From: Denitrovibrio acetiphilus DSM 12809
GTDB taxonomy: Bacteria; Chrysiogenota; Deferribacteres; Deferribacterales; Geovibrionaceae
Length of the DNA stretch: 64,000 nt
Reading direction: 5' to 3'
Assembly: GCF_000025725.1 (NCBI RefSeq)
Contig: NC_013943.1
Span: forward strand, 186,001-250,000
Made by a program: the position numbers and the translations under genes. Positions within the stretch are counted from its first letter, which is position 1. Every line of letters begins with the position of its first letter. Shown here piece after piece: positions 7,252-30,302 of this stretch. Below the pieces are notes generated by a model. The model made no database searches and was not told the origin of the DNA. It worked only from the letters and a program-made list of their open reading frames with translations.

Positions 7252-7340
7252 AATCAGGTGTTAGCATCTGACTAAGGTTGAGGTCGACTTGTTTTGATTA
7301 AAATGAGTTTGACGATCTTCAACATACACAAGGAGGGGAA

Positions 7341-8783
7341 ATGAGTCATTCGTTAAGCAAAGCATTTTTCGCAGTATTAATCCTTGCTTTAACAGTATCA
7401 GTAGCTTATAGCTTCGAGGACGACAGCTACAGCACACCTGATAACTGGAAACAGCACGTGACTGCAGGTCGTATAGTCCAGAGCACCAGCGGTTCAGGAC
7501 TGACCGATGATACTAGTCTTTACACAACTCTTACCACCCGTCTGCGTCTTAAGTCTAATGAATATGCCGAAGACAGCGATGTCTATCAGTACATTCGTAT
7601 GCACACCGATGCAGCAGAAGTAGGTAACGGCACAGTAAAGCTTTCAATCTTCGGACGAATCACCAGCGATATCAACGGAGATTCCGATGAAGACTGGGGA
7701 GACAAAGACTTCTATGCTCAGAGAGACATTCTTGACGCTGACAGCAGCGAAGGAGATCTCGGCGGTCGTCTTTATCAGGGTTATATCCAGGCAGACGGTG
7801 TTATTAAGAACACCAAGATCAGCATTGGGCGTTTTTACCTTGATCACCTTACTACCTATCAGGTAGACGGGCTTGACGCACAGGTAAATGCAACTGATAA
7901 CTTTTCAGTTTATGCCTTCGGTGGTCTTCCGGTAAGCTACTTTTATGATCTTGAAGATTCCTATGTAGCTGGAGCAGGTTTCAGCTATAAGTATATGGAT
8001 AACACTATCTTTAGAGGTGAGTACTCCTACGCAGAAGTAGACGACATTGATGATGATCATACTCAGCTTGAGTTTGTTCAGCTCATCCCTAACGGTTCAT
8101 TAATGCTCGGTTACGAGCTTCTTAATGATGCGGATACTTACAGCGCAGATCTTGATTACCAGATATCCTCCACCGGAACTATCGTTACTCTCGGTTTCGA
8201 GAGACTTAATGATGATATAGAAGGCAGCGACAGCAACTATCTGGTTAACCCTATCACTTATGCCCTGATGGATCAGAGCAAATACAGCAAATACAAAGCA
8301 TCCGTGTATCAGCCTTTTATGAAGTATTTCGTAGCAGGTCTGAGCTATGAGGCTAAGTCTGTAGACGGAGATGAGAACTTCGATAACCGTGACTATCAGA
8401 AGTACGGAGCTAAGTTCGACATCAACGGTCTTATCAGTGATGGAACTTACATCTCTCTTAATGCCGATAAGTGGGCAATTTCTGATACGGATTCCACCGA
8501 CGATAACAACCGCATCATGTACGGTCTTCAGGTTAGCCAGAAGGTTAATGCGGAGGTTGATGTATGGCTTGGTTCATCTTTCAGCAAATACGAGTATGAC
8601 TATCTTACCGATACCCGTAAGGATTCAGTAAGAAGCTACTATGTAGGCGGTCAGTATCAGCCTAGCGAGACCCTCGGAGTTCTTTTAGACGTAAGCCGCG
8701 AAGAGACAGAGTTCTACGATGATGTAGATGATGATCTCAGCGACAGTTACGTGGTAGAGCTTTGGGCTAACATAGCATTCTAG
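7341..8783 (+). CDS. Outer-membrane beta-barrel protein of reductase operon 1
   Basis: 480 residues with a signal peptide (hydrophobic 8-24, cleavage likely at VAYS-FE). The mature part is acidic, rich in alternating hydrophobic/polar strands and aromatic residues, and ends in a C-terminal Phe (ELWANIAF), the usual barrel-assembly signal. No homologue is recognised with certainty. Its place in front of a periplasmic multiheme cytochrome and a DmsA/B pair suggests the role of DmsF/MtrB: a barrel holding the cytochrome so electrons can cross the outer membrane. It is clearly shorter than MtrB (about 700). A diffusion porin for substrate is the alternative. Ribosome-binding site AAGGAGGGG precedes the ATG. 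Copy 1 differs from the others mainly around residues 120-175 (DKDFYAQ instead of DNDYYAQ). Confidence 0.8.
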   Translation: MSHSLSKAFFAVLILALTVSVAYSFEDDSYSTPDNWKQHVTAGRIVQSTSGSGLTDDTSLYTTLTTRLRLKSNEYAEDSDVYQYIRMHTDAAEVGNGTVKLSIFGRITSDINGDSDEDWGDKDFYAQRDILDADSSEGDLGGRLYQGYIQADGVIKNTKISIGRFYLDHLTTYQVDGLDAQVNATDNFSVYAFGGLPVSYFYDLEDSYVAGAGFSYKYMDNTIFRGEYSYAEVDDIDDDHTQLEFVQLIPNGSLMLGYELLNDADTYSADLDYQISSTGTIVTLGFERLNDDIEGSDSNYLVNPITYALMDQSKYSKYKASVYQPFMKYFVAGLSYEAKSVDGDENFDNRDYQKYGAKFDINGLISDGTYISLNADKWAISDTDSTDDNNRIMYGLQVSQKVNAEVDVWLGSSFSKYEYDYLTDTRKDSVRSYYVGGQYQPSETLGVLLDVSREETEFYDDVDDDLSDSYVVELWANIAF

Positions 8784-8793
8784 ATAAGGAGAT

Positions 8794-9252
8794 ATGATGA
8801 AACGAATAATAATCTTAACCATGCTGCTGCTTGCAATATCTCTTGTAGCGTTTGCTGTGACTTCTAATAAGCCAGCGAGCCATGATACTTCATGGATGGA
8901 ACGCCACGGTAATGCAAGTAAGATAGATAAGCAGGAATGTTTAGAGTGTCACGTAGAGCAGGTATCCTGCATTCAGTGCCACCAGGACACACAGCCCCGT
9001 AATCACACTGGCGGCTGGGTGAAGAAAGGTCACGGCTTAGAGGCTAGATGGGACAGGAACAGCTGTCAGACCTGCCACCGTGAGGATTCCTGTATCCAGT
9101 GCCATCAGGAGACCCCTCCTGCAAGTCACCGTCCTGGTTGGAGAGATCCGATCAACAGACATTGTGACAGCAGCTGTCACTACCCAGTACAGGAAACTAC
9201 CTGTTTTACTTGTCATAAGAGTGCTCACGCACCTAATCAGTACACTAAGTAG
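8794..9252 (+). CDS. Periplasmic multiheme c-type cytochrome, operon 1
   Basis: 152 residues with an N-terminal signal peptide (hydrophobic 5-22). Covalent haem motifs CXXCH start at 49, 59, 91, 100 and 137. A sixth, CDSSCH at 124-129, is CX3CH, an unusual spacing. Additional histidines (30, 38, 71, 80, 112, 123) can supply distal ligands, so a bis-His hexaheme protein is likely. It begins 10 nt after the barrel and ends 14 nt before the catalytic gene. By analogy with DmsE/MtrA it would carry electrons between the quinol pool's periplasmic carrier and the reductase, possibly inside the barrel (inference). The protein is identical in operons 1 and 2 and differs only by Asn89 to Ser in operons 3 and 4. 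Confidence 0.9.
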   Translation: MMKRIIILTMLLLAISLVAFAVTSNKPASHDTSWMERHGNASKIDKQECLECHVEQVSCIQCHQDTQPRNHTGGWVKKGHGLEARWDRNSCQTCHREDSCIQCHQETPPASHRPGWRDPINRHCDSSCHYPVQETTCFTCHKSAHAPNQYTK

Positions 9253-9266
9253 ATGGAGCGTAAATA

Positions 9267-12185
9267 ATGAGTTTAAAAGATAAATTACTTAAATCCCAAG
9301 AAGTAACCCGTCGTACCTTCCTTAAGGGTGCGAGTGCAGCCGGAGCTGCAGCGGCGCTTTACGGTTGCGGCGGAGGCGGCGGCGGTAAAACTTACATGGA
9401 AGAGGACGACACTCTTGAAGTGCCGGAAATAAAAGGGACAATCATACCCGGTGGTACTCCTCACAACTGTGGTGGACGTTGTCTCAGCAAATACTATGTT
9501 GAAGACGGTGTGGTAAAAAGAATTGTAACAGACGAAAGAGGCGATAAGACTCTTGAGAATGGTGACGATCCTGAATACCGCTCATGCGTCAGATGCCGTT
9601 CAAGAAAGCAGTGGTTCTACCGTAATGACCGTCTTATGTATCCTCTCAAGCAAACTGGTGAAAGAGGAGATATGGACGGATTCGTAAGAATCTCATGGGA
9701 TCAGGCTTTCACAGAAATTGCCGCTAAAATGCAGGATGTTATCGGCAGATACGGCAGTAAAGGTATCCATTCCATTTACTCCTCCGGTGATGCTTCCGGC
9801 TGGGCAAGCAACTCTCTGCACAGACTTCTTGGTCTTACAGGCGGTTACACATATTACTACTCTAACTACAGCTTCCCTGCTCTTGAGCATGTTGCAAGAT
9901 TTGTAGATGGTAGAAATAATGGTTCTCCATATGGAAACGGCAGACAGGATGCTAAAAATGCAGATTATCTTGTTCTGTGGAGTTTCAACCCTAACGAAGT
10001 AGTATTCGGTACTAACACAAACTGGTACCTTCAGCAGATTAAGGAGAGCGGTGTTCCTGTTATTGCTGTGGACACTCGTGTTTCTAAAACTGTTGCTACA
10101 GCAGCGGATGAATATATCAGCATTATGCCTGGTACAGACGCAGCACTTGTAATGGCTATGATGTATCACATTATGAAAGAGCATCCAGATAAAGTGGATT
10201 CTGCTTTTATTCAGAAATACTGCTACGGTTTCTTCGATACCGGTAACACTACACTTCATGCAGACAGTCCGTCAGCTAACTATGATGTGCCGGACGGCGG
10301 TTCACTTTCTGCTTTTATCATGGGTGATGAAAATGATCTTCTTACAGGTTCAGGTTCTATCCTTGCTGGCTTAAATAACAAATTGTCTATCTACCCTGAC
10401 ACAATAGGTTACAACGTAAACGATGACGATGACCTTTTCGGTAAGACAGTAGGCATCTGGGGACAGGAAGCTAAAACACCTGAGTGGGCAGAAGCGATCA
10501 CTGGTGTTCCTGCTGCTAAAATCAAAGAACTTGCACTCCTTTACATGGACAATAAAGTCACAACATGGATAGGTGGTGGTTACCAGAGACACACAGAATC
10601 TGAGCAAGCTGTATGGATGAACAGAATATTCAGTGTTTTCTCTAAAAACTTTGGTGCGGCCGGTCAGAGTTCAGGACGTAATTCTAACAACGTCACAGCA
10701 TCAACACCTGGAACAGGTATGGGCGCAGGCAATGGCGTAAACCTTGAAAGCGAACTTTATTACCCAAAAAGAGTAACATCGGATCTGAAATATGTACATA
10801 CAGTGCAAAGAGCCAACATGCCTGTTTTTGTTATTCCTGATGCACTTGATAATGCGGGAACTGGAAAATCAAAATGGAATGACGGTCAGGTTAAAAAAAT
10901 TCACGAAGGCTTTGGTAAAATTTTCTTCGTGCCTGGCGGTAACATTATGGTTAACCAGTCCGGTGATGTTAACTATAACTATGACATCTTCACTGACAGA
11001 TCAAAGTGCGAGATGATTGTAAATTTTGACCACTTTATGACACCTTCAGCAGCAATTGCCGACTATATCCTTCCGTCAACAATGCAGGGTGAAAAACCAG
11101 GTGCTGTTAATGCGTGGGGTACAGGTGAAGTTTGTATCAGACTTAATAAAGTTAAAGATATTCCTGGCGAAGTTATGTCTGAATACGATATCTGTGCTGG
11201 TATTGCAAGTAAATTCGGGCTTGAGAGTGACTACTATGACGGCTACTCAACAGGGCAGGAAGGTATGGACGAAAGACTTGAAGCAGGATGGGATTCTGCC
11301 AATCTTTCTGCTAAGTATGGTATGACTTACGATGAATGGGTAGAGAAAGGTATTGCGTCACTTCACAGCACATACAACGAAAACCAATATTACATTCACT
11401 TCGAAGATTTCCGCAATGATCCTGTGAGCAATCCGCTTCAAACACCTACAGGTAAAATAGAAGCTTATTGTCAGGCAATGATGGAAGACTATGAAGCGAG
11501 AAATCACTTTAACATTGATGAAGTTACTGCCGATGCCGGTGGAGAAACAGTGCTTTACGGTACAGGAGAAATATATTCTCCACTTGCTAATACAGAAGGT
11601 AAAACTACAGCCAGAAGATTTGTTTACCCTATCCCTATGTATATACCTCTTATGGAAGGTGTACATGCTATTGACTATACAGATCCTGCTAATGAGTATG
11701 CTCACCCGGATCCACTTGGTACAAACGACAAAGGGTACACATATACTCTTCACACATGGCACCTGATGTATCGTTCACACTCAACGCTGAATAACGTTGC
11801 GTATCTGGATGAATGTCAGAAACAAGATATTAACGGTAACCCTGCGTTCCTCGACCCGAACAGAGATTGGTCTGAAGGAGCTTGGGACGATAATGTCTAT
11901 GAGTCTATATGGCTTAACCCTGCAGATGCTAAAGACATCGGCGTTACTCAGGGGGACAGAGTCCTTATCAGTAACGACAGAGGGAAGATGTATGCATCAG
12001 TTGTTTTAACCAACAGAGTACGTCCGAAAATCATTCATATCGGACAAGGGTCATGGTCCAGCAAAAATTCTGATGGCATAGATGTTGGTGGTAATGCAAA
12101 CACAGTAACCACAGCCCGCCCATCAAGGATTTGTAAAGGTATGACTTCAGCCAATGACTGCAAAGTCAAAATTGAAAAAGCGTAG
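9267..12185 (+). CDS. DmsA-like molybdopterin oxidoreductase, catalytic subunit of operon 1
   Basis: 972 residues. A Tat signal (TRRTFLKG, Arg15-Arg16) is followed by LYGC at 31-34 and a glycine run, so it may be a Tat-exported lipoprotein. The N-terminal Fe-S motif is atypical: Cys68-X3-Cys72 and Cys107-X2-Cys110, with Thr where the first canonical Cys is expected. The molybdenum-binding segment GGYTYYYSNYSFPAL aligns with the GSYSTAQI region of E. coli DmsA and gives Ser202 as the probable Mo ligand, which argues against nitrate, arsenate or selenate reductases. Family motifs include MPGTDAALVMAM, KTPEWAEAITGVPAAKI, KSKWNDGQVK, and the C-terminal cofactor domain HLMYRSHSTLNN...GDRVLISNDRGK. 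It probably reduces an S- or N-oxide; the actual substrate is unknown. Confidence 0.9.
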   Translation: MSLKDKLLKSQEVTRRTFLKGASAAGAAAALYGCGGGGGGKTYMEEDDTLEVPEIKGTIIPGGTPHNCGGRCLSKYYVEDGVVKRIVTDERGDKTLENGDDPEYRSCVRCRSRKQWFYRNDRLMYPLKQTGERGDMDGFVRISWDQAFTEIAAKMQDVIGRYGSKGIHSIYSSGDASGWASNSLHRLLGLTGGYTYYYSNYSFPALEHVARFVDGRNNGSPYGNGRQDAKNADYLVLWSFNPNEVVFGTNTNWYLQQIKESGVPVIAVDTRVSKTVATAADEYISIMPGTDAALVMAMMYHIMKEHPDKVDSAFIQKYCYGFFDTGNTTLHADSPSANYDVPDGGSLSAFIMGDENDLLTGSGSILAGLNNKLSIYPDTIGYNVNDDDDLFGKTVGIWGQEAKTPEWAEAITGVPAAKIKELALLYMDNKVTTWIGGGYQRHTESEQAVWMNRIFSVFSKNFGAAGQSSGRNSNNVTASTPGTGMGAGNGVNLESELYYPKRVTSDLKYVHTVQRANMPVFVIPDALDNAGTGKSKWNDGQVKKIHEGFGKIFFVPGGNIMVNQSGDVNYNYDIFTDRSKCEMIVNFDHFMTPSAAIADYILPSTMQGEKPGAVNAWGTGEVCIRLNKVKDIPGEVMSEYDICAGIASKFGLESDYYDGYSTGQEGMDERLEAGWDSANLSAKYGMTYDEWVEKGIASLHSTYNENQYYIHFEDFRNDPVSNPLQTPTGKIEAYCQAMMEDYEARNHFNIDEVTADAGGETVLYGTGEIYSPLANTEGKTTARRFVYPIPMYIPLMEGVHAIDYTDPANEYAHPDPLGTNDKGYTYTLHTWHLMYRSHSTLNNVAYLDECQKQDINGNPAFLDPNRDWSEGAWDDNVYESIWLNPADAKDIGVTQGDRVLISNDRGKMYASVVLTNRVRPKIIHIGQGSWSSKNSDGIDVGGNANTVTTARPSRICKGMTSANDCKVKIEKA

Positions 12186-12857
12186 GGAGGCTCATAATGG
12201 CTCAGATGGCATTTTACTTCGATCAAAATAGATGTATGGGATGTAACGCCTGTACAGTAGCTTGTAAAGACTGGAACGATGTTCAGCCCGGTCAGGCTAG
12301 ATGGAGACGACTCAGCAATGAAGAATCAGGTTCGTTTCCTGATGTGAAAGTGTTCAATCTTGTGCTTTCATGCAACCACTGTGCTAACCCTGCTTGTACA
12401 GCAGCTTGTCCGGTTGGCGCTATATATAAAAGAGAAGAAGACGGTATAGTAATCGTAAACCGTGATCTCTGTCAGAATATCAAAGCCTGTGCCGTAGCGT
12501 GTCCTTATGGTGCGCCTCAGTTCGGTGATGATGACAGTGAACCGGTAGCCGAAGCTTCATGGGCGGTAGCTCACCCGATGCAGAAATGTACTTTCTGCTG
12601 GGACAGACAGGCAGAAGGTCTTGCACCATCCTGTGTAGCTGCATGCCCTCAGCGTGCGCTTGACTTTGGTACAGTAGCTGAAATAACAGCTAAATATCCG
12701 ACAGCAGTGAAAACTGTAGTTGGTATGCCTCAGTCTGACCTTGATTCTAACGGCAACAAGCTCGAATCAGGCGACACTGTTCCGTCCATTTACTTTAAAC
12801 CAAAGGGTTAATCCCTTTTAACTTTGGCGGGGTACATAACGTGTGCCCCGCCTTTTT
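12177..12857 (+). repeat. 3' constant block, copy 1
   Basis: Shared sequence that resumes three codons before the end of the catalytic gene and runs through the Fe-S gene to the terminator. Corresponding copies begin at 18034, 23771 and 29619. Confidence 0.85.
12197..12811 (+). CDS. DmsB-like electron-transfer Fe-S subunit, operon 1
   Basis: 204 residues without signal peptide, like DmsB, which is co-exported with its Tat partner. Four cysteine groups are visible: 13-23 (CMGCNACTVAC), 59-71 (CNHCANPACTAAC), 92-102 and 131-150 (CTFCWDRQAEG...CVAAC). The third group reads CQNIKACAVAC: Ile95 replaces the cysteine equivalent to DmsB Cys102, so this cluster has three Cys ligands and may be [3Fe-4S]. 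It follows the catalytic gene by 11 nt with GGGAGG upstream. It should pass electrons to the molybdenum subunit. No DmsC membrane anchor follows, so the donor is probably the multiheme cytochrome rather than quinol directly. Confidence 0.92.
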   Translation: MAQMAFYFDQNRCMGCNACTVACKDWNDVQPGQARWRRLSNEESGSFPDVKVFNLVLSCNHCANPACTAACPVGAIYKREEDGIVIVNRDLCQNIKACAVACPYGAPQFGDDDSEPVAEASWAVAHPMQKCTFCWDRQAEGLAPSCVAACPQRALDFGTVAEITAKYPTAVKTVVGMPQSDLDSNGNKLESGDTVPSIYFKPKG

Positions 12858-13211: not shown

Positions 13212-14654
13212 ATGAGTCATTCGTTAAGTAAAGCATTTTTCGCAGTATTAATCCTTGCTTTAACAGTATCAGTAGCCTATAGCTTCGAGGACGACAGCTA
13301 CAGCACACCTGATAACTGGAAACAGCACGTGACTGCAGGTCGTATAGTCCAGAGCACCAGCGGTTCAGGACTGACCGATGATACTAGTCTTTACACAACG
13401 CTTACCACCCGTCTGCGTCTCAAGTCTAACGAATATGCTGAGGACAGCGATGTCTATCAGTACATTCGTATGCACACCGATGCAGCAGAAGTAGGTAACG
13501 GTACCGTAAAGCTTTCAATTTTCGGACGAATCACCAGCGATATCAATGGTGATTCTGATGAAGACTGGGGGGATAACGACTACTATGCCCAGCGGGATAT
13601 TCTTGACGCTGACAGCAGCGAAGGAGATCTCGGCGGTCGTCTTTATCAGGGTTATCTCCAGGCAGACGGTGTTATTAAGAACACTAAGATCAGCATTGGA
13701 CGTTTTTACCTTGATCACCTTACTACCTATCAGGTAGACGGTATTGACGCACAGGTAAATGTAACTGATAACTTTTCAGTTTATGCCTTTGGCGGTCTTC
13801 CGGTAAGCTACTTTTATGATCTTGAAGATTCCTATGTAGCAGGAGCAGGCTTCAGCTATAAGTATATGGATAACACTATCTTCAGAGGTGAGTACTCCTA
13901 TGCCGAAGTAGACGACATTGATGACGATCATACTCAGCTTGAGTTTGTTCAGCTTATCCCTAACGGTTCAGTAATGCTCGGTTACGAGCTTCTTAATGAT
14001 GCGGATACTTACAGCGCAGATCTTGATTACCAGATATCCTCCACCGGAACTATCGTTACTCTCGGTTTCGAGAGACTTAATGATGATATAGAAGGTAGCG
14101 ACAGCAACTATCTGGTTAACCCTATCACTTATGCCCTGATGGATCAGAGCAAATACAGCAAATACAAAGCATCCGTGTATCAGCCTTTTATGAAATATTT
14201 CGTAGCAGGTCTGAGCTATGAGGCTAAGTCTGTAGACGGAGATGAGAACTTCGATAACCGTGACTATCAGAAGTACGGAGCTAAGTTCGACATCAACGGT
14301 CTTATCAGTGATGGAACTTACATCTCTCTTAATGCCGATAAGTGGGCAATTTCTGATACGGATTCCACCGACGATAACAACCGCATCATGTACGGTCTTC
14401 AGGTTAGCCAGAAGGTTAATGCGGAGGTTGATGTATGGCTTGGTTCATCTTTCAGCAAATACGAGTATGACTATCTTACCGATACCCGTAAGGATTCAGT
14501 AAGAAGCTACTATGTAGGCGGTCAGTATCAGCCTAGCGAGACCCTCGGAGTTCTTTTAGACGTAAGCCGCGAAGAGACAGAGTTCTACGATGATGTAGAT
14601 GATGATCTCAGCGACAGTTACGTGGTAGAGCTTTGGGCTAACATAGCATTCTAG
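13212..14654 (+). CDS. Outer-membrane beta-barrel protein of reductase operon 2
   Basis: 480 residues, nearly identical to the copy in operon 1. Differences are a few substitutions: KDF to NDY around residue 121, Ile to Leu near 149, Leu to Ile near 179, Ala to Val near 185, and Leu to Val in NGSVMLG. Signal peptide, acidic strand-rich body and terminal Phe are unchanged. From about residue 260 on, the DNA equals copy 1, whereas the first half equals copies 3 and 4. Role as for operon 1: probable outer-membrane housing for the cytochrome (inference). Confidence 0.8.
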   Translation: MSHSLSKAFFAVLILALTVSVAYSFEDDSYSTPDNWKQHVTAGRIVQSTSGSGLTDDTSLYTTLTTRLRLKSNEYAEDSDVYQYIRMHTDAAEVGNGTVKLSIFGRITSDINGDSDEDWGDNDYYAQRDILDADSSEGDLGGRLYQGYLQADGVIKNTKISIGRFYLDHLTTYQVDGIDAQVNVTDNFSVYAFGGLPVSYFYDLEDSYVAGAGFSYKYMDNTIFRGEYSYAEVDDIDDDHTQLEFVQLIPNGSVMLGYELLNDADTYSADLDYQISSTGTIVTLGFERLNDDIEGSDSNYLVNPITYALMDQSKYSKYKASVYQPFMKYFVAGLSYEAKSVDGDENFDNRDYQKYGAKFDINGLISDGTYISLNADKWAISDTDSTDDNNRIMYGLQVSQKVNAEVDVWLGSSFSKYEYDYLTDTRKDSVRSYYVGGQYQPSETLGVLLDVSREETEFYDDVDDDLSDSYVVELWANIAF

Positions 14655-14664
14655 ATAAGGAGAT

Positions 14665-15123
14665 ATGATGAAACGAATAATAATCTTAACCATGCTGCTG
14701 CTTGCAATATCTCTTGTAGCGTTTGCTGTGACTTCTAATAAGCCAGCGAGCCATGATACTTCATGGATGGAACGCCACGGTAATGCAAGTAAGATAGATA
14801 AGCAGGAATGTTTAGAGTGTCACGTAGAGCAGGTATCCTGCATTCAGTGCCACCAGGACACACAGCCCCGTAATCACACTGGCGGCTGGGTGAAGAAAGG
14901 TCACGGCTTAGAGGCTAGATGGGACAGGAACAGCTGTCAGACCTGCCACCGTGAGGATTCCTGTATCCAGTGCCATCAGGAGACCCCTCCTGCAAGTCAC
15001 CGTCCTGGTTGGAGAGATCCGATCAACAGACATTGTGACAGCAGCTGTCACTACCCAGTACAGGAAACTACCTGTTTTACTTGTCATAAGAGTGCTCACG
15101 CACCTAATCAGTACACTAAGTAG
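14665..15123 (+). CDS. Periplasmic multiheme c-type cytochrome, operon 2
   Basis: Protein identical to the operon 1 cytochrome, including the five CXXCH motifs, the CX3CH motif at 124-129 and Asn89. Spacing to barrel (10 nt) and catalytic gene (14 nt) is also the same. Presumed electron carrier to the operon 2 reductase; because the protein is identical, it is interchangeable between operons 1 and 2. Confidence 0.9.
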   Translation: MMKRIIILTMLLLAISLVAFAVTSNKPASHDTSWMERHGNASKIDKQECLECHVEQVSCIQCHQDTQPRNHTGGWVKKGHGLEARWDRNSCQTCHREDSCIQCHQETPPASHRPGWRDPINRHCDSSCHYPVQETTCFTCHKSAHAPNQYTK

Positions 15124-15137
15124 ATGGAGCGTAAATA

Positions 15138-18041: not shown

Positions 18042-18052
18042 GGAGGCTCATA

Positions 18053-18681: not shown

Positions 18682-18713
18682 GGCGGGGTACATAACGTGT
18701 GCCCCGCCTTTTT
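18682..18713 (+). terminator. Rho-independent terminator, operon 2
   Basis: GGCGGGG (18682-18688), CCCCGCC (18702-18708), T5. Confidence 0.88.
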
Positions 18714-18714
18714 A

Positions 18715-20476: not shown

Positions 20477-20486
20477 ATAAGGAGAT

Positions 20487-20945
20487 ATGATGAAACGAAT
20501 AATAATCTTAACCATGCTGCTGCTTGCAATATCTCTTGTAGCGTTTGCTGTGACTTCTAATAAGCCAGCGAGCCATGATACTTCATGGATGGAACGCCAC
20601 GGTAATGCGAGTAAGATAGATAAGCAGGAATGTTTAGAGTGTCACGTAGAGCAGGTATCCTGCATTCAGTGCCACCAGGACACACAGCCCCGTAATCACA
20701 CCGGCGGCTGGGTGAAGAAAGGTCACGGCTTAGAGGCTAGATGGGACAGGAGCAGCTGTCAGACTTGCCACCGTGAGGATTCCTGTATCCAGTGCCATCA
20801 GGAGACTCCTCCTGCAAGTCACCGTCCTGGTTGGAGAGATCCGATCAACAGACACTGTGACAGCAGCTGTCACTACCCAGTACAGGAAACCACCTGTTTT
20901 ACTTGTCATAAGAGTGCTCACGCACCTAATCAGTACACTAAGTAG
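20487..20945 (+). CDS. Periplasmic multiheme c-type cytochrome, operon 3
   Basis: 152 residues, identical to operon 1 apart from Asn89 to Ser just before the third haem motif. The five CXXCH and the CX3CH motif are intact. Presumed electron donor to the operon 3 reductase. Confidence 0.9.
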   Translation: MMKRIIILTMLLLAISLVAFAVTSNKPASHDTSWMERHGNASKIDKQECLECHVEQVSCIQCHQDTQPRNHTGGWVKKGHGLEARWDRSSCQTCHREDSCIQCHQETPPASHRPGWRDPINRHCDSSCHYPVQETTCFTCHKSAHAPNQYTK

Positions 20946-20959
20946 ATGGAGCGTAAATA

Positions 20960-23779
20960 ATGAGTTTAAAAGATAAATTACTTAAATCCCAAGAAGTAAC
21001 CCGTCGTACCTTCCTTAAGGGTGCGAGTGCAGCCGGAGCTGCAGCGGCGCTTTACGGTTGCGGCGGAGGCGGCGGCGGTAAAACTTACATGGAAGAGGAC
21101 GATACTCTTGAAGTGCCGGAAATAAAAGGAACTACTGTAATGGGTTCTACTCCTCATAACTGTGGTGGACGCTGCCTCAGTAAATATTATATAACAGATG
21201 GCGTTGTGAAACGTATCGTCACAGACGAAACAGAAGATAAAAACGCCCTTGGTACAACAGCTAATGACCCTCAAAGACGTTCCTGCGTAAGATGCCGTTC
21301 AAGAAAGCAGTGGTTCTACCGTAATGACCGTATTCTGTATCCTCTCAAGCAGACTGGTGAGAGGGGGGATATTAACGGTTTTCAGCGTATATCATGGGAA
21401 CAGGCTTTCAGTGAGATCGGTAATCAGCTTAAAGACATAGCAGACGATCCATCAAAAGGGCCTGAAACACTTTTTAAAGTGTACGCTTCAGCAGATTCAA
21501 CCGGATGGTCAGGCGGTTCTGTAGGCAGGCTTTTCAATATGCTTGGTGGTTCATTGTCATACAGAGACGACTATTCATGGCCTGCTCTTGACCACGTTGC
21601 AACTTTCACCGAAGGTACCGGATACATTCCTTTAGGAAACAGCAGAGGCGATATGGTTAATGCTGAACACATATTCCTCTGGAGTTACAACGGTCTCGAA
21701 GCTGTATGGGGTACACAGTCCGGCTGGTACCTGACACAGGCAAGAGAAAGTGGGATCCCCTTTACTGTTATAGACACAAGGTATTCGCAGACAGCGGCAA
21801 CTCTGGCAGATGAATTTATCAATATTCAGCCTTGTACAGACGGAGCTCTTGCACTCGCTGCTATGTATTATCTCTTAAAAGAGAGAATGGCTGACCTTGA
21901 CGTTGATTTTATCAAAGAGCACGTACACGGCTTTTTCGATGATCCTGCAGCAACCTCATACCATGCGAGCGTTGCAGACGGAACATATGTCGTTCCTAAT
22001 GGTGCATCACTTTCCGCTTATATTTTCGGAACAGATACAACTCTTGTTGATGATGGGTATAACGGCGCTATTTCAATTTATCCTGACACAATAGGCTATA
22101 ATGTACCCGATACAGATCCGTTGTTTGGCAAGAGAGCACCGATTTACGGTCAGACTCCAAAAACACCTGAGTGGGCATCTGCAATAACTGGTGTTCCAGT
22201 AGCTACTATTAAGAAGATCGCAGATACACTTATTGACTCAAAATGTACAATATTAAACGGATCAGGCTTTCAGCGTAACACGGAGTCAGAGCAGATTGTC
22301 TGGCTTATGAGAATTTTGACTGTAGTTACAGAGAACTTCGGAGCAGAAGGGTGCAGTTATGGTATGCAACCATGGAGCTGGGTTGGCGGTCCTTCTACAG
22401 GCATGTCCAGCGGTGTCTCCAACGGCGTGGATGTTTCAGGTTCAATCTATGATACAAGCGAAATGACAACAACAGACTTCTACGCAAACAGCACCTCAAA
22501 CTCAATACCTGTTTTCATATGGCCTGATGCTGTTGAAAACGGCGGGACAGGTAAATCAAGATGGAATGATGGGCAGGTGGCCAATCTTCCGAAAGGTATA
22601 AAGTGTATCTTCAACTTTGCAGGGAACGTGCTTGCGAATCAATCAGGTGATGTCAATCTGCTTAAAGAGATACTCGCAGACAGAAGCAAGTGCGAGCTGC
22701 TAGTTACTGGTGAGCACTTTATGACATCGTCAGCACTTATGTCCGACTATGTTCTTCCATGTTCTATGCAGATGGAAAAACCGGGTGCAGCTACAGGCTG
22801 GTTCAGTGAAGAAGTTACACTCATTAACGAAGTCCTGGAGACTCCAGGAGAGGTTAAAAGTGAATACGACATCTGTGCTGGTATAGCCGGATCATTTGGG
22901 AAAGAGACAGAGTACACTGAAAATAAAACTATGCTCGACAGGCTCAAAGAGGGTTGGGACAGTGGATATGAAAGTGGGCAATTTGACATAACATGGGATG
23001 AATTCCTTGAAGATGGAGTCTGGAAACCGACTCTGCCTATATCAATTCTCTACAAAGATTTCAGAGATGACCCTTCTAACAATCCTCTTAATACACCGTC
23101 AGGTAAATTTGAGGCATATGCTCAGTGGATGATGGAGGATTATCAGGCACGTCGCTATGACAACCATGACACATACGGTTCTCTTGAGCATGGGGGTGTT
23201 ATTAATGATGAGAAGTCTGGTGCATCAACGGATATGAGATTTGTATATCCTATCCCTATGTATATCCCTACTGTGGAAGGTATGCACGCCGACGGCAGCC
23301 ATCCGGACCTTACAGGCAGGGGCGATGAAGGCTATAATTTCCTTCTTCACACATGGCACCTTCAGTATCGTTCACACTCGACACTGAATAACATTGCATA
23401 TCTTGATGAGTGCTACAAACAAGATATAAACGGTAACTCTACATTTCTTGATCCTAACAGAGAAGTTAGCGACGGTGTATGGGACGACAATGTTTATGAA
23501 CCAGTATGGCTTAGCCCTTCGGATGCGAGTAGTCTTGGTGTTGCAACAGGGGACAGAGTCCTTATCAGCAACGGCAGAGGAAGGATGTATGCATCAGTTG
23601 TTGTGACCAACAGAATTGCTTCGAAAATTGTTGGTATAGGACAAGGCGGATGGCATCAGCTTAAAGGCGATATTGATGTTGGAGGGTGTGCGAATACAAT
23701 GACAAGTGCCCGTCCTTCAAGGATTTGTCAGGGTATGACCCTTGCAAATGACTGCCGTGTAAAAATAGTGAAAGCGTAG
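20960..23779 (+). CDS. DmsA-like molybdopterin oxidoreductase, catalytic subunit of operon 3
   Basis: 939 residues, the shortest and apparently most divergent of the four. Residues 1-57 are constant. Fe-S motif Cys68-X3-Cys72 and Cys109-X2-Cys112, with Thr at the missing first-Cys position. Mo-ligand segment SYRDDYSWPALD gives Ser206. Family blocks: QPCTDGALALAAM, KTPEWASAITGVPVATI, KSRWNDGQVA, WHLQYRSHSTLNN and GDRVLISNGRGRMYA. The sequence is full length without frameshift. Substrate unknown; an S- or N-oxide is the conservative guess. Confidence 0.9.
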   Translation: MSLKDKLLKSQEVTRRTFLKGASAAGAAAALYGCGGGGGGKTYMEEDDTLEVPEIKGTTVMGSTPHNCGGRCLSKYYITDGVVKRIVTDETEDKNALGTTANDPQRRSCVRCRSRKQWFYRNDRILYPLKQTGERGDINGFQRISWEQAFSEIGNQLKDIADDPSKGPETLFKVYASADSTGWSGGSVGRLFNMLGGSLSYRDDYSWPALDHVATFTEGTGYIPLGNSRGDMVNAEHIFLWSYNGLEAVWGTQSGWYLTQARESGIPFTVIDTRYSQTAATLADEFINIQPCTDGALALAAMYYLLKERMADLDVDFIKEHVHGFFDDPAATSYHASVADGTYVVPNGASLSAYIFGTDTTLVDDGYNGAISIYPDTIGYNVPDTDPLFGKRAPIYGQTPKTPEWASAITGVPVATIKKIADTLIDSKCTILNGSGFQRNTESEQIVWLMRILTVVTENFGAEGCSYGMQPWSWVGGPSTGMSSGVSNGVDVSGSIYDTSEMTTTDFYANSTSNSIPVFIWPDAVENGGTGKSRWNDGQVANLPKGIKCIFNFAGNVLANQSGDVNLLKEILADRSKCELLVTGEHFMTSSALMSDYVLPCSMQMEKPGAATGWFSEEVTLINEVLETPGEVKSEYDICAGIAGSFGKETEYTENKTMLDRLKEGWDSGYESGQFDITWDEFLEDGVWKPTLPISILYKDFRDDPSNNPLNTPSGKFEAYAQWMMEDYQARRYDNHDTYGSLEHGGVINDEKSGASTDMRFVYPIPMYIPTVEGMHADGSHPDLTGRGDEGYNFLLHTWHLQYRSHSTLNNIAYLDECYKQDINGNSTFLDPNREVSDGVWDDNVYEPVWLSPSDASSLGVATGDRVLISNGRGRMYASVVVTNRIASKIVGIGQGGWHQLKGDIDVGGCANTMTSARPSRICQGMTLANDCRVKIVKA

Positions 23780-23790
23780 GGAGGCTCATA

Positions 23791-24405
23791 ATGGCTCAAA
23801 TGGCATTTTACTTCGATCAAAATAGATGTATGGCTTGTAACGCCTGTACAGTAGCTTGTAAAGACTGGAATGATGTTCAGCCCGGTCAGGCTAGATGGAG
23901 ACGACTCAGTAATGAAGAATCAGGTTCATTTCCTGATGTGAAAGTGTTCAACCTTGTGCTTTCATGCAACCACTGTGCTAACCCTGCCTGTACAGCAGCT
24001 TGTCCGGTTGGCGCTATATATAAAAGAGAAGAAGACGGTATAGTAATCGTAAACCGTGATCTCTGTCAGAATATCAAAGCCTGTGCCGTAGCGTGTCCTT
24101 ATGGTGCGCCTCAGTTCGGTGATGATGACAGTGAACCTGTAGCCGAAGCTTCATGGGCGGTGGCTCACCCGATGCAGAAATGTACTTTCTGCTGGGACAG
24201 ACAGGCAGAAGGTCTTGCACCATCCTGTGTCGCTGCATGCCCTCAGCGTGCGCTTGACTTTGGTACAGTAGCTGAAATAACAGCTAAATATCCGACGGCA
24301 GTGAAAACTGTAGTTGGTATGCCTCAGTCTGACCTTGATTCTAACGGCAACAAGCTCGAATCAGGCGACACTGTTCCGTCTATTTACTTTAAACCAAAGG
24401 GTTAA
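23791..24405 (+). CDS. DmsB-like electron-transfer Fe-S subunit, operon 3
   Basis: 204 residues, same protein as operon 2 (Ala15). Four cysteine groups with Ile95 replacing one ligand of the third. Electron-transfer partner of the operon 3 catalytic subunit. Confidence 0.92.
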   Translation: MAQMAFYFDQNRCMACNACTVACKDWNDVQPGQARWRRLSNEESGSFPDVKVFNLVLSCNHCANPACTAACPVGAIYKREEDGIVIVNRDLCQNIKACAVACPYGAPQFGDDDSEPVAEASWAVAHPMQKCTFCWDRQAEGLAPSCVAACPQRALDFGTVAEITAKYPTAVKTVVGMPQSDLDSNGNKLESGDTVPSIYFKPKG

Positions 24406-24419: not shown

Positions 24420-24451
24420 GGCGGGGTGCATAACGTGTGCCCCGCCTTTTT
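24420..24451 (+). terminator. Rho-independent terminator, operon 3
   Basis: GGCGGGG (24420-24426), CCCCGCC (24440-24446), T5. Confidence 0.88.
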
Positions 24452-24452
24452 A

Positions 24453-24709: not shown

Positions 24710-24799
24710 AACCAAGTGATAATTTCTACATAAGCAGGATACCCAATGCCCTTTTCATATCCGAGGGCGTTCCTGCTGCTTTTATCACAAGGAGGGGAA

Positions 24800-26242
24800 A
24801 TGAGTCATTCGTTAAGCAAAGCATTTTTCGCAGTATTAATCCTTGCTTTAACAGTATCAGTAGCTTATAGCTTCGAGGACGACAGCTACAGCACACCTGA
24901 TAACTGGAAACAGCACGTGACTGCAGGTCGTATAGTCCAGAGCACCAGCGGTTCAGGACTGACCGATGATACTAGTCTTTACACAACGCTTACCACCCGT
25001 CTGCGTCTTAAGTCTAACGAATATGCCGAAGACAGCGATGTCTATCAGTACATTCGTATGCATACCGATGCAGCAGAAGTAGGTAACGGAACAGTAAAGC
25101 TTTCAATCTTCGGACGCATCACCAGCGATATCAATGGTGATTCTGATGAAGACTGGGGGGATAACGACTACTATGCCCAGCGGGATATTCTTGACGCTGA
25201 CAACAGCGAAGGAGATCTTGGCGGTCGTCTTTATCAGGGTTATCTCCAAGCAGACGGTGTTATTAAGAACACTAAGATCAGCATTGGACGTTTTTACCTT
25301 GATCACCTTACTACCTATCAGGTAGACGGTATTGACGCACAGGTAAATGTAACTGATAACTTTTCAGTTTATGCCTTTGGCGGTCTTCCGGTAAGCTACT
25401 TTTATGATCTTGAAGATTCCTATGTAGCAGGAGCAGGCTTCAGCTATAAGTATATGGATAACACTATCTTCAGAGGTGAGTACTCCTATGCAGAAGTAGA
25501 TGACATCGATGACGATCATACTCAGCTTGAGTTTGTTCAGCTTATCCCTAACGGTTCAGTAATGCTCGGTTACGAGCTTCTTAATGATGCGGATACTTAC
25601 AGCGCAGATCTTGATTACCAGATATCCTCCACCGGAACTATCGTTACTCTCGGTTTCGAGAGACTTAATGATGATATAGAAGGCAGCGACAGCAACTATC
25701 TGGTTAACCCTATCACTTATGCCCTGATGGATCAGAGCAAATACAGCAAATACAAAGCATCCGTGTATCAGCCTTTTATGAAGTATTTCGTAGCAGGTCT
25801 GAGCTATGAGGCTAAGTCTGTAGACGGAGATGAGAACTTCGATAACCGTGACTATCAGAAATACGGAGCTAAGTTCGACATCAACGGTCTTATCAGTGAC
25901 GGTACTTATATCTCTCTTAATGCGGATAAGTGGGCAATTTCTGATACGGATTCCACCGACGACAACAATCGCATCATGTACGGTCTTCAGGTTAGCCAGA
26001 AGGTTAATGCCGAGGTTGATGTATGGCTTGGTTCTTCTTTCAGCAAATACGAGTATGACTATCTTACCGACACCCGTAAGGATTCAGTAAGAAGCTACTA
26101 CGTAGGCGGTCAGTATCAGCCTAGCGAGACCCTCGGAGTTCTTTTAGACGTAAGCCGCGAAGAGACAGAGTTCTACGATGATGTAGATGATGATCTCAGC
26201 GACAGTTACGTGGTAGAGCTTTGGGCTAACATAGCATTCTAG
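24800..26242 (+). CDS. Outer-membrane beta-barrel protein of reductase operon 4
   Basis: 480 residues from the ATG at 24800, which has the same AAGGAGGGG site as the other copies. An in-frame ATG at 24746 would add 18 residues but precedes the ribosome-binding site and is not used in the other copies. Compared with copy 2 the main difference is Ser to Asn near residue 135 (DADNSEG). Terminal Phe and signal peptide conserved. Role as for the other barrels. Confidence 0.8.
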   Translation: MSHSLSKAFFAVLILALTVSVAYSFEDDSYSTPDNWKQHVTAGRIVQSTSGSGLTDDTSLYTTLTTRLRLKSNEYAEDSDVYQYIRMHTDAAEVGNGTVKLSIFGRITSDINGDSDEDWGDNDYYAQRDILDADNSEGDLGGRLYQGYLQADGVIKNTKISIGRFYLDHLTTYQVDGIDAQVNVTDNFSVYAFGGLPVSYFYDLEDSYVAGAGFSYKYMDNTIFRGEYSYAEVDDIDDDHTQLEFVQLIPNGSVMLGYELLNDADTYSADLDYQISSTGTIVTLGFERLNDDIEGSDSNYLVNPITYALMDQSKYSKYKASVYQPFMKYFVAGLSYEAKSVDGDENFDNRDYQKYGAKFDINGLISDGTYISLNADKWAISDTDSTDDNNRIMYGLQVSQKVNAEVDVWLGSSFSKYEYDYLTDTRKDSVRSYYVGGQYQPSETLGVLLDVSREETEFYDDVDDDLSDSYVVELWANIAF

Positions 26243-26252
26243 ATAAGGAGAT

Positions 26253-26711
26253 ATGATGAAACGAATAATAATCTTAACCATGCTGCTGCTTGCAATATCT
26301 CTTGTAGCGTTTGCTGTGACTTCTAATAAGCCAGCGAGCCATGATACTTCATGGATGGAACGCCACGGTAATGCGAGTAAGATAGATAAGCAGGAATGTT
26401 TAGAGTGTCACGTAGAGCAGGTATCCTGCATTCAGTGCCACCAGGACACACAGCCCCGTAATCACACCGGCGGCTGGGTGAAGAAAGGTCACGGCTTAGA
26501 GGCCAGATGGGACAGGAGCAGCTGTCAGACTTGCCACCGTGAGGATTCCTGTATCCAGTGCCATCAGGAGACTCCTCCTGCAAGTCACCGTCCTGGTTGG
26601 AGAGATCCGATCAACAGACACTGTGACAGCAGCTGTCACTACCCAGTACAGGAAACCACCTGTTTTACTTGTCATAAGAGTGCTCACGCACCTAATCAGT
26701 ACACTAAGTAG
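26253..26711 (+). CDS. Periplasmic multiheme c-type cytochrome, operon 4
   Basis: 152 residues, same protein as operon 3 (Ser89) with six haem-binding motifs, one of them CX3CH. Presumed electron donor to the operon 4 reductase. Confidence 0.9.
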   Translation: MMKRIIILTMLLLAISLVAFAVTSNKPASHDTSWMERHGNASKIDKQECLECHVEQVSCIQCHQDTQPRNHTGGWVKKGHGLEARWDRSSCQTCHREDSCIQCHQETPPASHRPGWRDPINRHCDSSCHYPVQETTCFTCHKSAHAPNQYTK

Positions 26712-26725
26712 ATGGAGCGTAAATA

Positions 26726-29626
26726 ATGAGTTTAAAAGATAAATTACTTAAATCCCAAGAAGTAACCCGTCGTACCTTCCTTAAGGGTGCGAGTGCAGCC
26801 GGAGCTGCAGCGGCGCTTTACGGTTGCGGCGGAGGCGGCGGCGGTAAAACTTACATGGAAGAGGACGATACTCTTGAAGTGCCGGAAATAAAAGGAACAA
26901 TCATACCAAGTACCACCCCTCACAACTGTGGTGGACGTTGTGTCAGTAAGTTTTATGTTGAAGATGGTGTAATCAAGAGAATCGTATCTGATGAAAGAGG
27001 CGATGTTGACCTTAAAGATGGTGACGATCCTGAGTATCGTGCCTGTGTAAGGTGTCACGCTAAAAAGCAGTGGTTCAACCGTAATGACCGCCTTCTTTAT
27101 CCACTCAAACAGACTGGTGAGAGGGGCGATATTAACGGTTTTCAGCGTATCTCATGGGAGCAGGCATATACAGAGATCGCTGCCAAGATGCAGGAGATAA
27201 AAGACACATACGGAAATGAAGCATTCCATAATATGTATGCTTCCGGTGATGCTTCAGGCTGGGGTGGTGCGGCAAATCTCAGGCTTTTGAATCTCTTTGG
27301 CGGGTATACATCATATTATCTCAGCTACAGCTCTCCAACACTTCAGCACGTTGCAAGATTTGTTGAAGGGAAAGGATTTGCAAACCCCTATGGCAACTCA
27401 AGACAGGATGCTCAGTATGCAGATAACATCGTGCTCTGGTCCTGTAACTATCACGAGTCTGTAATCGGTACAAACTCCGGATGGTATCTGTCACAGTTCA
27501 AAGAGATGGGAATTCCTATAACATCAGTTGATGTGAGGTATTCTATGTCAACAGCGACTGTTGCCAGCGATTTTGTTGATGTTGAGCCTGGTACTGATTC
27601 TGCCCTTGTACTTGGAATGATGTATCATCTGCTTACAGACAGACTTGCAGACCTTGATATAGATTTTATTAAAGCTTATGTTTTCGGTTTCTTTGATAAC
27701 GGCAATGATTCCTATCATGTAGATCTGGATACAACAAGATATAAAGTTCCTGACGGTGCTTCTCTCAGTGCTTTCATTATGGGTGATGACAACAGTCTCA
27801 CAACTGTAATGCACGGTGGAGAATCGCTTAACAATGCAACATCAGTATATCCTCAGACTATAGGTTATGAAGTTAATGCTGATGATGAGCTTTACGGTAA
27901 AACAGTAAGCATCTGGGGACAGAAAGCTAAAACACCTGAGTGGGCTGAGAAGATCACCGGTGTTCCTGCTGCTAAAATCCGTCAGATGGCTGACATGTAC
28001 CTTGATACAAAAGTTACTACATGGAGTGGTCTTGGATACAACAGAGGAGCTGAGTCAGAGCAGATTATCTGGCTTCTCCGTATACTTTCTGCCATAACTA
28101 AAAACTTTGGTGTCCATGGTGCAGGATACGGGCGTAACTCTCAGAACGTTTCACCGACACTGCCTAGCAACGGTATGTCCAGTGGTGTTTCTAACGGTGT
28201 TAGCCTTAAAAGCAAAATATATGATGATACAAGACTTACTTCTCCGCTGGATTACGTTCCTACAGGTCAGATGAATAACCTCTCTGTCTTTACTATTCCT
28301 GATGCAGTTGCCAGCGAGGCCACAGGTAAATCCAGATGGAATGACGGTCAGGTTAAGCAGCTTACAACACCTTTTAAAGCTCTGTTTATTGCTGCCGGTA
28401 ACATCATGTATAATCAGCACTCCGGAACTGAATATGCAGGTGAGATCTTCAAAGATAAGAGCAAGCTTGAGCTTATCGTTAACATGGAACCGTTCATGAC
28501 TTCCTCAGCAAGTATATCTGACTATATTCTTCCTTCTACTCTGCCTGGAGAAAAACCAGGTGCTGTAAACGCATGGACCACAGGTGAGGTCGCTATCAAG
28601 ATGAACAAAGTCATCGACAGCCCCGGGGAAGTGATGGACGAGTATACAATTTGCGGTAAAATAGCTGAAAAACTCGGCTTTGGTGCAGATTACTTTGATG
28701 GGTACGCCGAAGGAACAGAGGGTATGGAAACCAGACTGAGAGACGGCTGGGAATCTGCTAACCTTTCTTCCAAATACGGCATGACATATGATGAATGGAG
28801 CGAAAAAGGTATCGCAAGCCTTCACGGAACTTACGATGAACAGTTTATTAACCATCAAGCCTTCCGCGAAGATCCTGTTAATAACCCACTTCAGACACCA
28901 TCTGGTAAATTCGAGGCTTACTGTCTTGGTATGATGGAAGACTATGAAGCCAGATATCATGAAAATGTTGATACTGTGACAGCAGATTCTGACGGTACAG
29001 ACACTCTTTATGGCGGCACACTTTATACTGAATACCATTCAGATTCTAACGCCAGAAGATTCGTCTACCCGATTCCTATGTACATCCCTATGTCTGAAGG
29101 ACGTCACGCAATTGATGCCATAGATCCATCAGATGAGCTTTGCCACGACGACCCGCTCGGTCTTAACGACAAAGGGTACACATTTAACCTGCTTAGCTGG
29201 CACTTGATGTATCGTTCACACTCAACACTGAACAACAACGGTTTCCTGAATGAAGTTTACAAAAAGGACATTAACGGAAACAAAGCATTCATAGATAATG
29301 AGCGTGAATTCACTGACGGCGTATGGGATGAGGATATTTATGAGCCTATCTGGATCAATGCGGCAGATGCAAAAGATGCAGGTGTCACAACAGGTGACAG
29401 AGTGCTTGTAAGCAACGATAGAGGAAAACTCTATGCAACAGCGGTAGTAACACAGAGAACTCCTGTCGGTACAGTCTCAATGGGACAGGGTGGCTGGTTA
29501 CAGCTGAACTCCGAAGGGATAGACATCGGCGGATGTGTGAGTACAGTAACAAGCCCAAGACCTTCAAGGATCTGCAAAGGGAACAACTGTGCGACTGACT
29601 GCCGCGTAAAATTTGAGAAAGCATAG
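26726..29626 (+). CDS. DmsA-like molybdopterin oxidoreductase, catalytic subunit of operon 4
   Basis: 966 residues with the constant 57-residue Tat/LYGC leader. Fe-S motif Cys68-X3-Cys72 and Cys107-X2-Cys110 (CVRCHAKK, against CVRCRSRK in the other copies). Mo-ligand segment YYLSYSSPTLQ gives Ser202. Family blocks: EPGTDSALVLGM, KTPEWAEKITGVPAAKI, KSRWNDGQVK, WHLMYRSHSTLNN, GDRVLVSNDRGKLYA. The EYLG-type linker after the Mo domain (GFGADYFDGYAEG) resembles copy 1 most, suggesting copies 1 and 4 are the closer pair among catalytic parts. Substrate unknown. Confidence 0.9.
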   Translation: MSLKDKLLKSQEVTRRTFLKGASAAGAAAALYGCGGGGGGKTYMEEDDTLEVPEIKGTIIPSTTPHNCGGRCVSKFYVEDGVIKRIVSDERGDVDLKDGDDPEYRACVRCHAKKQWFNRNDRLLYPLKQTGERGDINGFQRISWEQAYTEIAAKMQEIKDTYGNEAFHNMYASGDASGWGGAANLRLLNLFGGYTSYYLSYSSPTLQHVARFVEGKGFANPYGNSRQDAQYADNIVLWSCNYHESVIGTNSGWYLSQFKEMGIPITSVDVRYSMSTATVASDFVDVEPGTDSALVLGMMYHLLTDRLADLDIDFIKAYVFGFFDNGNDSYHVDLDTTRYKVPDGASLSAFIMGDDNSLTTVMHGGESLNNATSVYPQTIGYEVNADDELYGKTVSIWGQKAKTPEWAEKITGVPAAKIRQMADMYLDTKVTTWSGLGYNRGAESEQIIWLLRILSAITKNFGVHGAGYGRNSQNVSPTLPSNGMSSGVSNGVSLKSKIYDDTRLTSPLDYVPTGQMNNLSVFTIPDAVASEATGKSRWNDGQVKQLTTPFKALFIAAGNIMYNQHSGTEYAGEIFKDKSKLELIVNMEPFMTSSASISDYILPSTLPGEKPGAVNAWTTGEVAIKMNKVIDSPGEVMDEYTICGKIAEKLGFGADYFDGYAEGTEGMETRLRDGWESANLSSKYGMTYDEWSEKGIASLHGTYDEQFINHQAFREDPVNNPLQTPSGKFEAYCLGMMEDYEARYHENVDTVTADSDGTDTLYGGTLYTEYHSDSNARRFVYPIPMYIPMSEGRHAIDAIDPSDELCHDDPLGLNDKGYTFNLLSWHLMYRSHSTLNNNGFLNEVYKKDINGNKAFIDNEREFTDGVWDEDIYEPIWINAADAKDAGVTTGDRVLVSNDRGKLYATAVVTQRTPVGTVSMGQGGWLQLNSEGIDIGGCVSTVTSPRPSRICKGNNCATDCRVKFEKA

Positions 29627-29637
29627 GGAGGATTATA

Positions 29638-30252
29638 ATGGCTCAGATGGCATTTTACTTTAATCAAGATAGATGTATGGGTTGTAACGCCTGTACAGTA
29701 GCCTGTAAAGACTGGAACGGTGTAGAACCTGGACAGGCTAGCTGGAGACGATACAGCAATGAAGAATCAGGTACATTTCCTAATGTTGAAGTGTTTAACC
29801 TCGTTCTTTCATGTAACCATTGTGCTAACCCTGCCTGTACAGCAGCTTGTCCGGTTGGCGCTATATATAAAAGAGAAGAAGACGGCATCGTAATCGTAAA
29901 CCGTGATCTCTGTCAGGATATCAAAGCCTGTGCAGTAGCGTGTCCTTATGGTGCGCCTCAGTTCGGCGATGACGACAGTGAACCGGTACCGGAAGCTTCA
30001 TGGGCAGTAGCTCACCCGATGCAGAAATGTACTTTCTGCTGGGACAGACTGGCAGAAGGTCTTAAGCCAGCTTGTGTCGCCGCATGCCCTCAGCGTGCGC
30101 TTGACTTTGGTACAGTAGCTGAAATAACAGCTAAATACCCTACAGCAGTAAAAACTGTAGTTGGTATGCCTCAGTCTGACCTTGATGCCAACGGCAACAA
30201 GCTCGAATCAGGCGACACTGTTCCGTCTATTTATTTTACACCAAAGAGCTAA
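29638..30252 (+). CDS. DmsB-like electron-transfer Fe-S subunit, operon 4
   Basis: 204 residues. The N-terminal 55 residues carry about nine substitutions relative to copies 1-3 (for example NQDRC, NGVEPGQASWRRY, GTFPNVEV), whereas residues 56-200 are almost unchanged. The third cysteine group is CQDIKACAVAC, again with Ile95 instead of a ligand Cys. It is the last structural gene of the array and retains the same upstream junction with GGGAGG. Confidence 0.92.
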   Translation: MAQMAFYFNQDRCMGCNACTVACKDWNGVEPGQASWRRYSNEESGTFPNVEVFNLVLSCNHCANPACTAACPVGAIYKREEDGIVIVNRDLCQDIKACAVACPYGAPQFGDDDSEPVPEASWAVAHPMQKCTFCWDRLAEGLKPACVAACPQRALDFGTVAEITAKYPTAVKTVVGMPQSDLDANGNKLESGDTVPSIYFTPKS

Positions 30253-30270
30253 CAGGCTCTTAACATTTCC

Positions 30271-30302
30271 GGCGGGGTGCATAACATGTGCCCCGCCTTT
30301 TA
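30271..30302 (+). terminator. Rho-independent terminator, operon 4
   Basis: GGCGGGG (30271-30277), CCCCGCC (30291-30297), T4. Confidence 0.85.

Follow-up and report, generated by a model that had tools for sequence, protein, structure and literature searches.

Denitrovibrio acetiphilus DSM 12809 carries a single chromosome of 3,222,077 bp, and the stretch analyzed here, hereafter the window, comprises its 64,000 nucleotides from 186,001 to 250,000. The window contains four tandem units on one strand and in one gene order (7341–12811, 13212–18667, 19034–24405, and 24746 (24800)–30252), which bears out the preliminary description of four copies of barrel, multiheme cytochrome, DmsA-like, and DmsB-like genes in a row, here placed at 7341–30252. 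The units lie head to tail, and each encodes an outer-membrane-type barrel (480 aa), a cytochrome (152 aa), a catalytic subunit A (939–972 aa), and an iron–sulfur subunit B (204 aa), and each has its own promoter region and its own terminator. The features of the locus are as follows.

5069–5764, + strand: OmpR/PhoB-type response regulator that may control the array
5761–7146, + strand: sensor histidine kinase, partner of the regulator
7234–7251, + strand: regulatory-like repeat of unit 1, TTTTACCTTCGCTTAACC, 107 bp upstream of barrel 1
7341–8783, + strand: barrel 1, outer-membrane-type beta protein, 480 aa
8794–9252, + strand: hexaheme cytochrome 1 (likely assignment), 152 aa, five CxxCH and one CxxxCH
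9267–9434, + strand: constant Tat leader of A1, codons 1–56
9267–12185, + strand: A1 catalytic subunit, DmsA-like molybdoenzyme, head from codon 57
12197–12811, + strand: B1 Fe-S subunit, DmsB-like, 15 Cys
12826–12852, + strand: terminator, unit 1
13212–14654, + strand: barrel 2
14665–15123, + strand: cytochrome 2
15138–18041, + strand: A2 catalytic subunit; about 79% across the head to its orthologs in G004 and G008
18053–18667, + strand: B2 Fe-S subunit
18682–18708, + strand: terminator, unit 2
19034–20476, + strand: barrel 3
20487–20945, + strand: cytochrome 3
20960–23779, + strand: A3 catalytic subunit; orthologs in five other genomes, 67–73% over the head
23791–24405, + strand: B3 Fe-S subunit
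24420–24446, + strand: terminator, unit 3
24800–26242, + strand: barrel 4, start set by alignment to the other copies
26253–26711, + strand: cytochrome 4
26726–29626, + strand: A4 catalytic subunit; no clear ortholog found
29638–30252, + strand: B4 Fe-S subunit, 91–92% to B1–B3
30271–30297, + strand: terminator, unit 4
30713–31390, + strand: TorD-like chaperone, the sole one adjoining the four units
31408–32415, + strand: multi-cluster ferredoxin-like protein; accessory gene kept beside such units in relatives

The units are a mixture of nearly invariant and strongly divergent parts. Between copies, amino-acid identity is 98.5–99.8% for the barrel and 99.3–100% for the cytochrome, as against 53–63% for A, and the corresponding dS values are 0.06–0.15, 0–0.08, and 1.3–1.8. 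The B subunits are 99.5–100% identical among copies 1–3, but copy 4 reaches just 91–92%, so that the claim of almost identical chassis proteins stands for the barrels, the cytochromes, and B1–B3 and has to be relaxed for B4. The first 56 residues of A are identical in all four copies, one residue short of the shared stretch originally proposed, since residue 57 is Glu in copy 2 and Gly in the other three; divergence sets in at codon 56/57, directly after the Tat leader. Barrel, cytochrome, and the leader part of A (codons 1–56) together make up 2113 bases, of which 75 vary among the four copies. The whole A genes (encoding 972, 967, 939, and 966 residues in copies 1–4) show 60–66% nucleotide identity, with synonymous sites saturated and the drop at codon 57. 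A second constant block runs from the last few codons of A through B to a strong terminator. Uniform divergence along all genes of each copy was looked for and not found; the borders are sharp. That the catalytic subunits differ strongly is a relative statement, given that they are DmsA-like paralogs 53–63% identical to one another.

The promoters lie outside the constant parts, since the 5′ constant block starts 15–20 bp upstream of the barrel ATG, at the ribosome-binding site. They nevertheless share a regulatory-like repeat, found at -98, -102, and -108 in units 2–4, which has 0, 2, 1, and 0 mismatches to TTTNACNNTNNCTTNACC in promoters 1–4. Two or fewer mismatches occur in 2.9% of shuffled promoter regions, a comparison that is descriptive because the consensus was taken from these same four promoters. 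The spaced repeat at all four promoters looks like a single OmpR-type response-regulator site, and relatives of the regulator/kinase pair adjoin chassis loci in other genomes. The repeat is also present near other molybdoenzyme loci of the chromosome (2777721–2777738 and 1732028–1732045), possibly marking a shared regulon; with one mismatch allowed, matches by chance are frequent as well.

The catalytic and iron–sulfur subunits most resemble those of the DMSO reductases. A scores above the cut-offs of PF00384 and PF01568, and TIGR02166 (DmsA/YnfE) is the best subfamily match of A1–A4 (405–468 bits), still below its cut-off of 777.7; B likewise scores 167 bits against TIGR02951 (DmsB), below the cut-off of 214.1. 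The FS0 motif of A reads C-x3-C … C-x2-C, and its four Cys are expected to hold the FS0 cluster. The Mo-ligand Ser aligns with Ser147 of Rhodobacter DMSO reductase. Both landmarks (C68, C72, C107, C110, and S202 in A1) are kept in all four heads, as had been noted. B has 15 Cys where DmsB has 16 cluster Cys, one Cys of the third motif being replaced by Ile, from which we infer that the third cluster is likely [3Fe-4S] or missing. The cytochrome, with five CxxCH motifs, one CxxxCH, and six further conserved His, is likely a hexaheme protein; six heme motifs in 152 aa set it apart from decaheme MtrA-type proteins. No NCBIfam model or PDB relative was found for the barrel, and thus no match to the MtrB family in these searches. 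Its best Pfam match is OMP_b-brl, hit by 3 of 14 members with E 4e-4 at best. Cytochrome and barrel profiles gave no useful match in the PDB, and no DmsC-type membrane anchor is encoded among the unit genes.

The system can be set beside several known ones. With DmsABC and YnfEFGH it shares A and B subunits that resemble DmsA/YnfE and DmsB best, the Tat leader, the FS0 Cys, and the Mo-ligand Ser; unlike them, the unit lacks a DmsC anchor, includes a barrel and a hexaheme cytochrome, and has a B short of one cluster Cys. With Shewanella DmsEFAB and the MtrCAB-type porin–cytochrome conduits it shares an outer-membrane-type barrel and a multiheme cytochrome, with a DmsAB-like enzyme encoded alongside, but it differs in its 480-aa barrel, its 152-aa hexaheme cytochrome, its many copies per genome, and its homogenized chassis. 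Porin–cytochrome (Pcc) clusters are described elsewhere (PMC4245776). An analogy can also be drawn to polymorphic toxins and Rhs proteins, where a constant leader or scaffold precedes a variable C-terminal module with borders set by recombination; here, however, the operon is respiratory, the modules are whole enzymes, and there is no toxin or immunity gene.

Heads and chassis were compared with those of relatives. In the head tree, A3 groups with sequences from G003, G005, G006, G007, and G011 (100/100) and A2 with those from G004 and G008 (100/100). A1 and A4 have no resolved orthologs in this tree, so that, among the four, it supports an age that crosses genera for A2 and A3 only. Comparison of A2 and A3 with their orthologs in other genera gives dN far below dS. 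Two further head types also form groups that cross genera, A7 in G004, G005, G006, G008, and G013, and A6, which Denitrovibrio shares with G006. The barrels behave differently: copies 1–4 of D. acetiphilus (G000) and copies 1–5 of G006 each cluster by genome (100/100), and the cytochromes do the same. An AU test rejects a single clade for the four D. acetiphilus heads (p = 6e-43) and for four G006 heads (p = 2e-54), values that are nominal because the groups were chosen with the tree already known. The units of G006 are scattered across more than 2 Mb (at 0.31, 2.23, 2.24, 2.48, and 2.50 Mb), and barrel dS is nonetheless 0.04–0.10, as against a head dS of at least 1.6. One head type is found on two chassis: in G006 an A6-type head with its own B6, 81% identical to Denitrovibrio A6 over the head, sits on the common chassis, whereas the barrel paired with A6 in Denitrovibrio shares only 38% identity with barrels 1–4. 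One G006 unit has its barrel gene broken up into two frames that overlap (L101:3639–5211), probably through a frameshift.

The division into constant and variable parts, with dispersed units, recurs in three relatives (G006, G023, and G037), the genomes that, together with D. acetiphilus, allow several full chassis to be compared within one genome. For G004, G005, G007, G008, and G016 the evidence consists of shared leaders or of contigs ending at the junction. The drafts G004, G005, G007, and G008 have contigs that stop within or close to leader or chassis sequences, which is what repeats would produce, an observation that is supporting rather than independent proof. Within the phylum, the barrel was found only in this order (27 of 51 genomes; none of five outside the order). 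The congeners G001 and G002 are without the reductase system, which indicates that it is dispensable. D. acetiphilus itself has a fifth chassis (barrel 64%, cytochrome 81%) in which a leader remnant of 59 residues is all that is left of the A gene (L031:4033–6176, chromosomal positions about 2,783,032–2,785,175), followed by a radical SAM gene. A further locus (L029:16672–18174, about 692,671–694,173) encodes an intact B and, as an orphan, only the last 292 residues of an A subunit; transposase genes are found some 11–15 kb upstream of it.

The substitutions within the 2113-bp 5′ block point to how the chassis copies stay alike. Between positions 335 and 690 the variable sites mostly separate copy 1 from copies 2, 3, and 4, which agree; between 1034 and 1857 copies 1 and 2 agree and mostly differ from 3 and 4, which agree in turn. 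The identity runs of pairs 1–2 and 2–3 are longer than in all 5000 permutations. Because the variable sites fall into runs that switch partners, we read the block as a mosaic of gene conversion tracts. The pattern is that of concerted evolution, with paralogs of one species closer to each other than to those of another, and with old orthology retained elsewhere in the operon. As in rRNA and tuf genes, likeness would reflect gene conversion keeping the copies alike within a genome; in contrast to them, homogenized parts here alternate with old, non-homogenized catalytic genes in one operon. A search of the literature on gene conversion or concerted evolution in molybdoenzyme operons, made with narrow terms and covering few subscription journals, found no description.

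The best explanation, and one that we consider likely, is that the array encodes four parallel respiratory reductases on one shared platform, homogenized by gene conversion and carrying older heads. The sequences show that conversion holds the platform (barrel, cytochrome, Tat leader, and, in this family, B for the most part) near-identical within a genome, in a relative even between chassis copies more than 1 Mb apart. They also show that the catalytic bodies are older lineages beyond its reach, at least two of which (A2 and A3) are common to several genera. The Tat system would export A, a probable lipoprotein, together with B. As the unit lacks a DmsC-type membrane subunit, electrons may pass from the quinol pool through the hexaheme cytochrome to A; barrel and cytochrome would cooperate at the outer membrane, as a conduit or as a substrate pore. 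Different heads presumably take different oxidized substrates; as in the DmsA family, S- and N-oxides or similar oxo compounds are the likeliest. Homogenization would keep leader, cytochrome, and barrel matched to one set of partners, so that any head placed after the leader would work at once. The modular character of the array, proposed at the outset, gains from the sharp borders, the recurrence in relatives, the separate histories, and the A6-type head on two chassis; these observations do not extend to the four specificities that the proposal included. To the earlier observation the present analysis adds a cause, conversion of the chassis around old heads, and recurrence in three further genomes.

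If this explanation is correct, exchange of a single module is enough for a bacterium to broaden its respiration, and the parts for export, electron delivery, and the outer membrane stay standard. The array would then be a model from nature for building engineered molybdoenzymes on a common platform and would clearly exemplify gene conversion confined to part of an operon. It would also allow a direct test of the limits that export leader, chaperone, and electron donor set on the evolution of an enzyme.

One competitor, which we regard as rather unlikely, is head capture: recently duplicated chassis into which foreign heads recombined through the matching leader and B flanks, so that the heads would have moved and the chassis stayed in place. 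The head borders do lie at the flanks that such recombination would use, the chassis under A6-type heads is not the same in two species, and a headless chassis and an orphan A C-terminus are both present. Moreover, a cluster of radical SAM, TorD, and Fe-S genes lies beside A1-like heads (G006, G004), A7 (G008, G005), and A3 (G011, G003). Yet the chassis mosaic requires repeated exchange between chassis copies, and a chassis dS of 0.06–0.15 spread over many sites is unlike a single fresh duplication. Head capture and gene conversion may both be active.

Redundancy, in which the four paralogs would have one broad S/N-oxide activity, or overlapping ones, and their number would serve dosage, seems to us doubtful to a similar degree. 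The known substrates of DmsA relatives are S- and N-oxides and some oxyanions. The heads are 53–63% identical and have all catalytic landmarks in common, one regulatory-like site is common to the four promoters, and no acceptor besides nitrate is known for the organism: D. acetiphilus was reported to grow with nitrate alone among the acceptors tried (PMC3035293). Against redundancy, an alignment to Rhodobacter DMSO reductase (1DMR), that is, a comparison of sequences, shows that the heads differ at three positions, T148 (F, V, W, and S in A1, A2, A3, and A4), Y165 (G, Y, a gap, and A), and W322 (G, L, S, and L). These three residues we take to line the pocket of the Rhodobacter enzyme. The equivalents of T148 and W322 are, furthermore, constant within the A2 and A3 ortholog groups. 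Differing pocket-aligned residues favor distinct substrates, and four heads with four substrate specificities are plausible. The aligned positions likewise argue against equivalent active-site pockets, the outcome that had been named as damaging to the proposal; the structure models (pLDDT 36 for the barrel and 53 for A1) are too poor for a fold search or a comparison of pockets.

Two further accounts fare much worse. Recent tandem amplification followed by fast catalytic divergence under diversifying selection would fit the tandem order and the near-identical flanks, but it is very improbable, being rejected by the saturated synonymous sites of the heads and by the AU test, and contradicted for A2 and A3, whose orthologs are found in other genera and differ from them with a dN much lower than dS. 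Strong purifying selection on the chassis proteins alone, for which the conservation of the cytochrome in all relatives might speak, is scarcely credible and the least probable of all, because barrels differ by about 48% between D. acetiphilus and G006, yet by 0–3% within each genome, and because low dS inside genomes rejects pure protein constraint as the cause of the likeness.

A related organization is found in a sister family, f6, which we guess to be Mucispirillaceae. Gene order there (G023 and G037) is A, B, TorD, barrel, cytochrome. Within each of these two genomes barrels are 96–99% and cytochromes 98–100% identical, apart from one diverged outlier copy each; between the genomes the values are 85–87% and 78–80%. 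A, B, and TorD are far apart within one genome (34–49% for A in G023), and three orthologous pairs of heads shared by G023 and G037 are 88–89% identical. In f6, B and TorD change along with the head, which leaves a smaller constant part. G016, with one full chassis only, contributes heads and no test of homogenization.

Thirty distinct f6 leaders are directly followed by a tract of G8–G10, with the body in frame in 10 of 30; in the other 20, another frame is open for at least 499 codons (many of the stretches end there). These leaders were selected by the presence of the tract and are silent on tract-free heads; among the first 17 f6 heads examined without a tract filter, 16 carry one. The control pattern had no match in 15 genomes, and G tracts are common genome-wide in f6. 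Heads with the tract occur in G016, G023, G037, G041, G042, and G045 (L127–L174, e.g., L131:4947). Judged from these reading frames, the tracts at the leader junction probably make the reductases phase-variable; homopolymer sequencing error or ribosomal frameshifting is a possible alternative. More tentatively, and with the odds somewhat against it, one may envisage a plug-in respiration of the Deferribacterales, in which the homogenized outer-membrane chassis and leader would form a socket for exchangeable heads attached at the leader border and in f6, probably gut Mucispirillaceae, poly-G tracts at this border would turn most heads on and off singly, giving each cell a random repertoire. If so, the choice of respiration in the sister family would be a phase-variable trait.

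The surroundings of the array deserve brief mention. A radical SAM protein accompanies TorD and the multi-cluster ferredoxin beside these reductases in many relatives (radical SAM loci at L031:6363–7679, L029:18220–19452, L102, L106, L110, L116, L119, L122, and L123), and the window has TorD and the ferredoxin without the radical SAM protein. Rfam and tRNA scans of the window returned no matches. Downstream, at 32634–36787, the translations, inspected by eye, show a PqiA-like pair as well as a protein of 1000 aa in which MCE-like segments are repeated.
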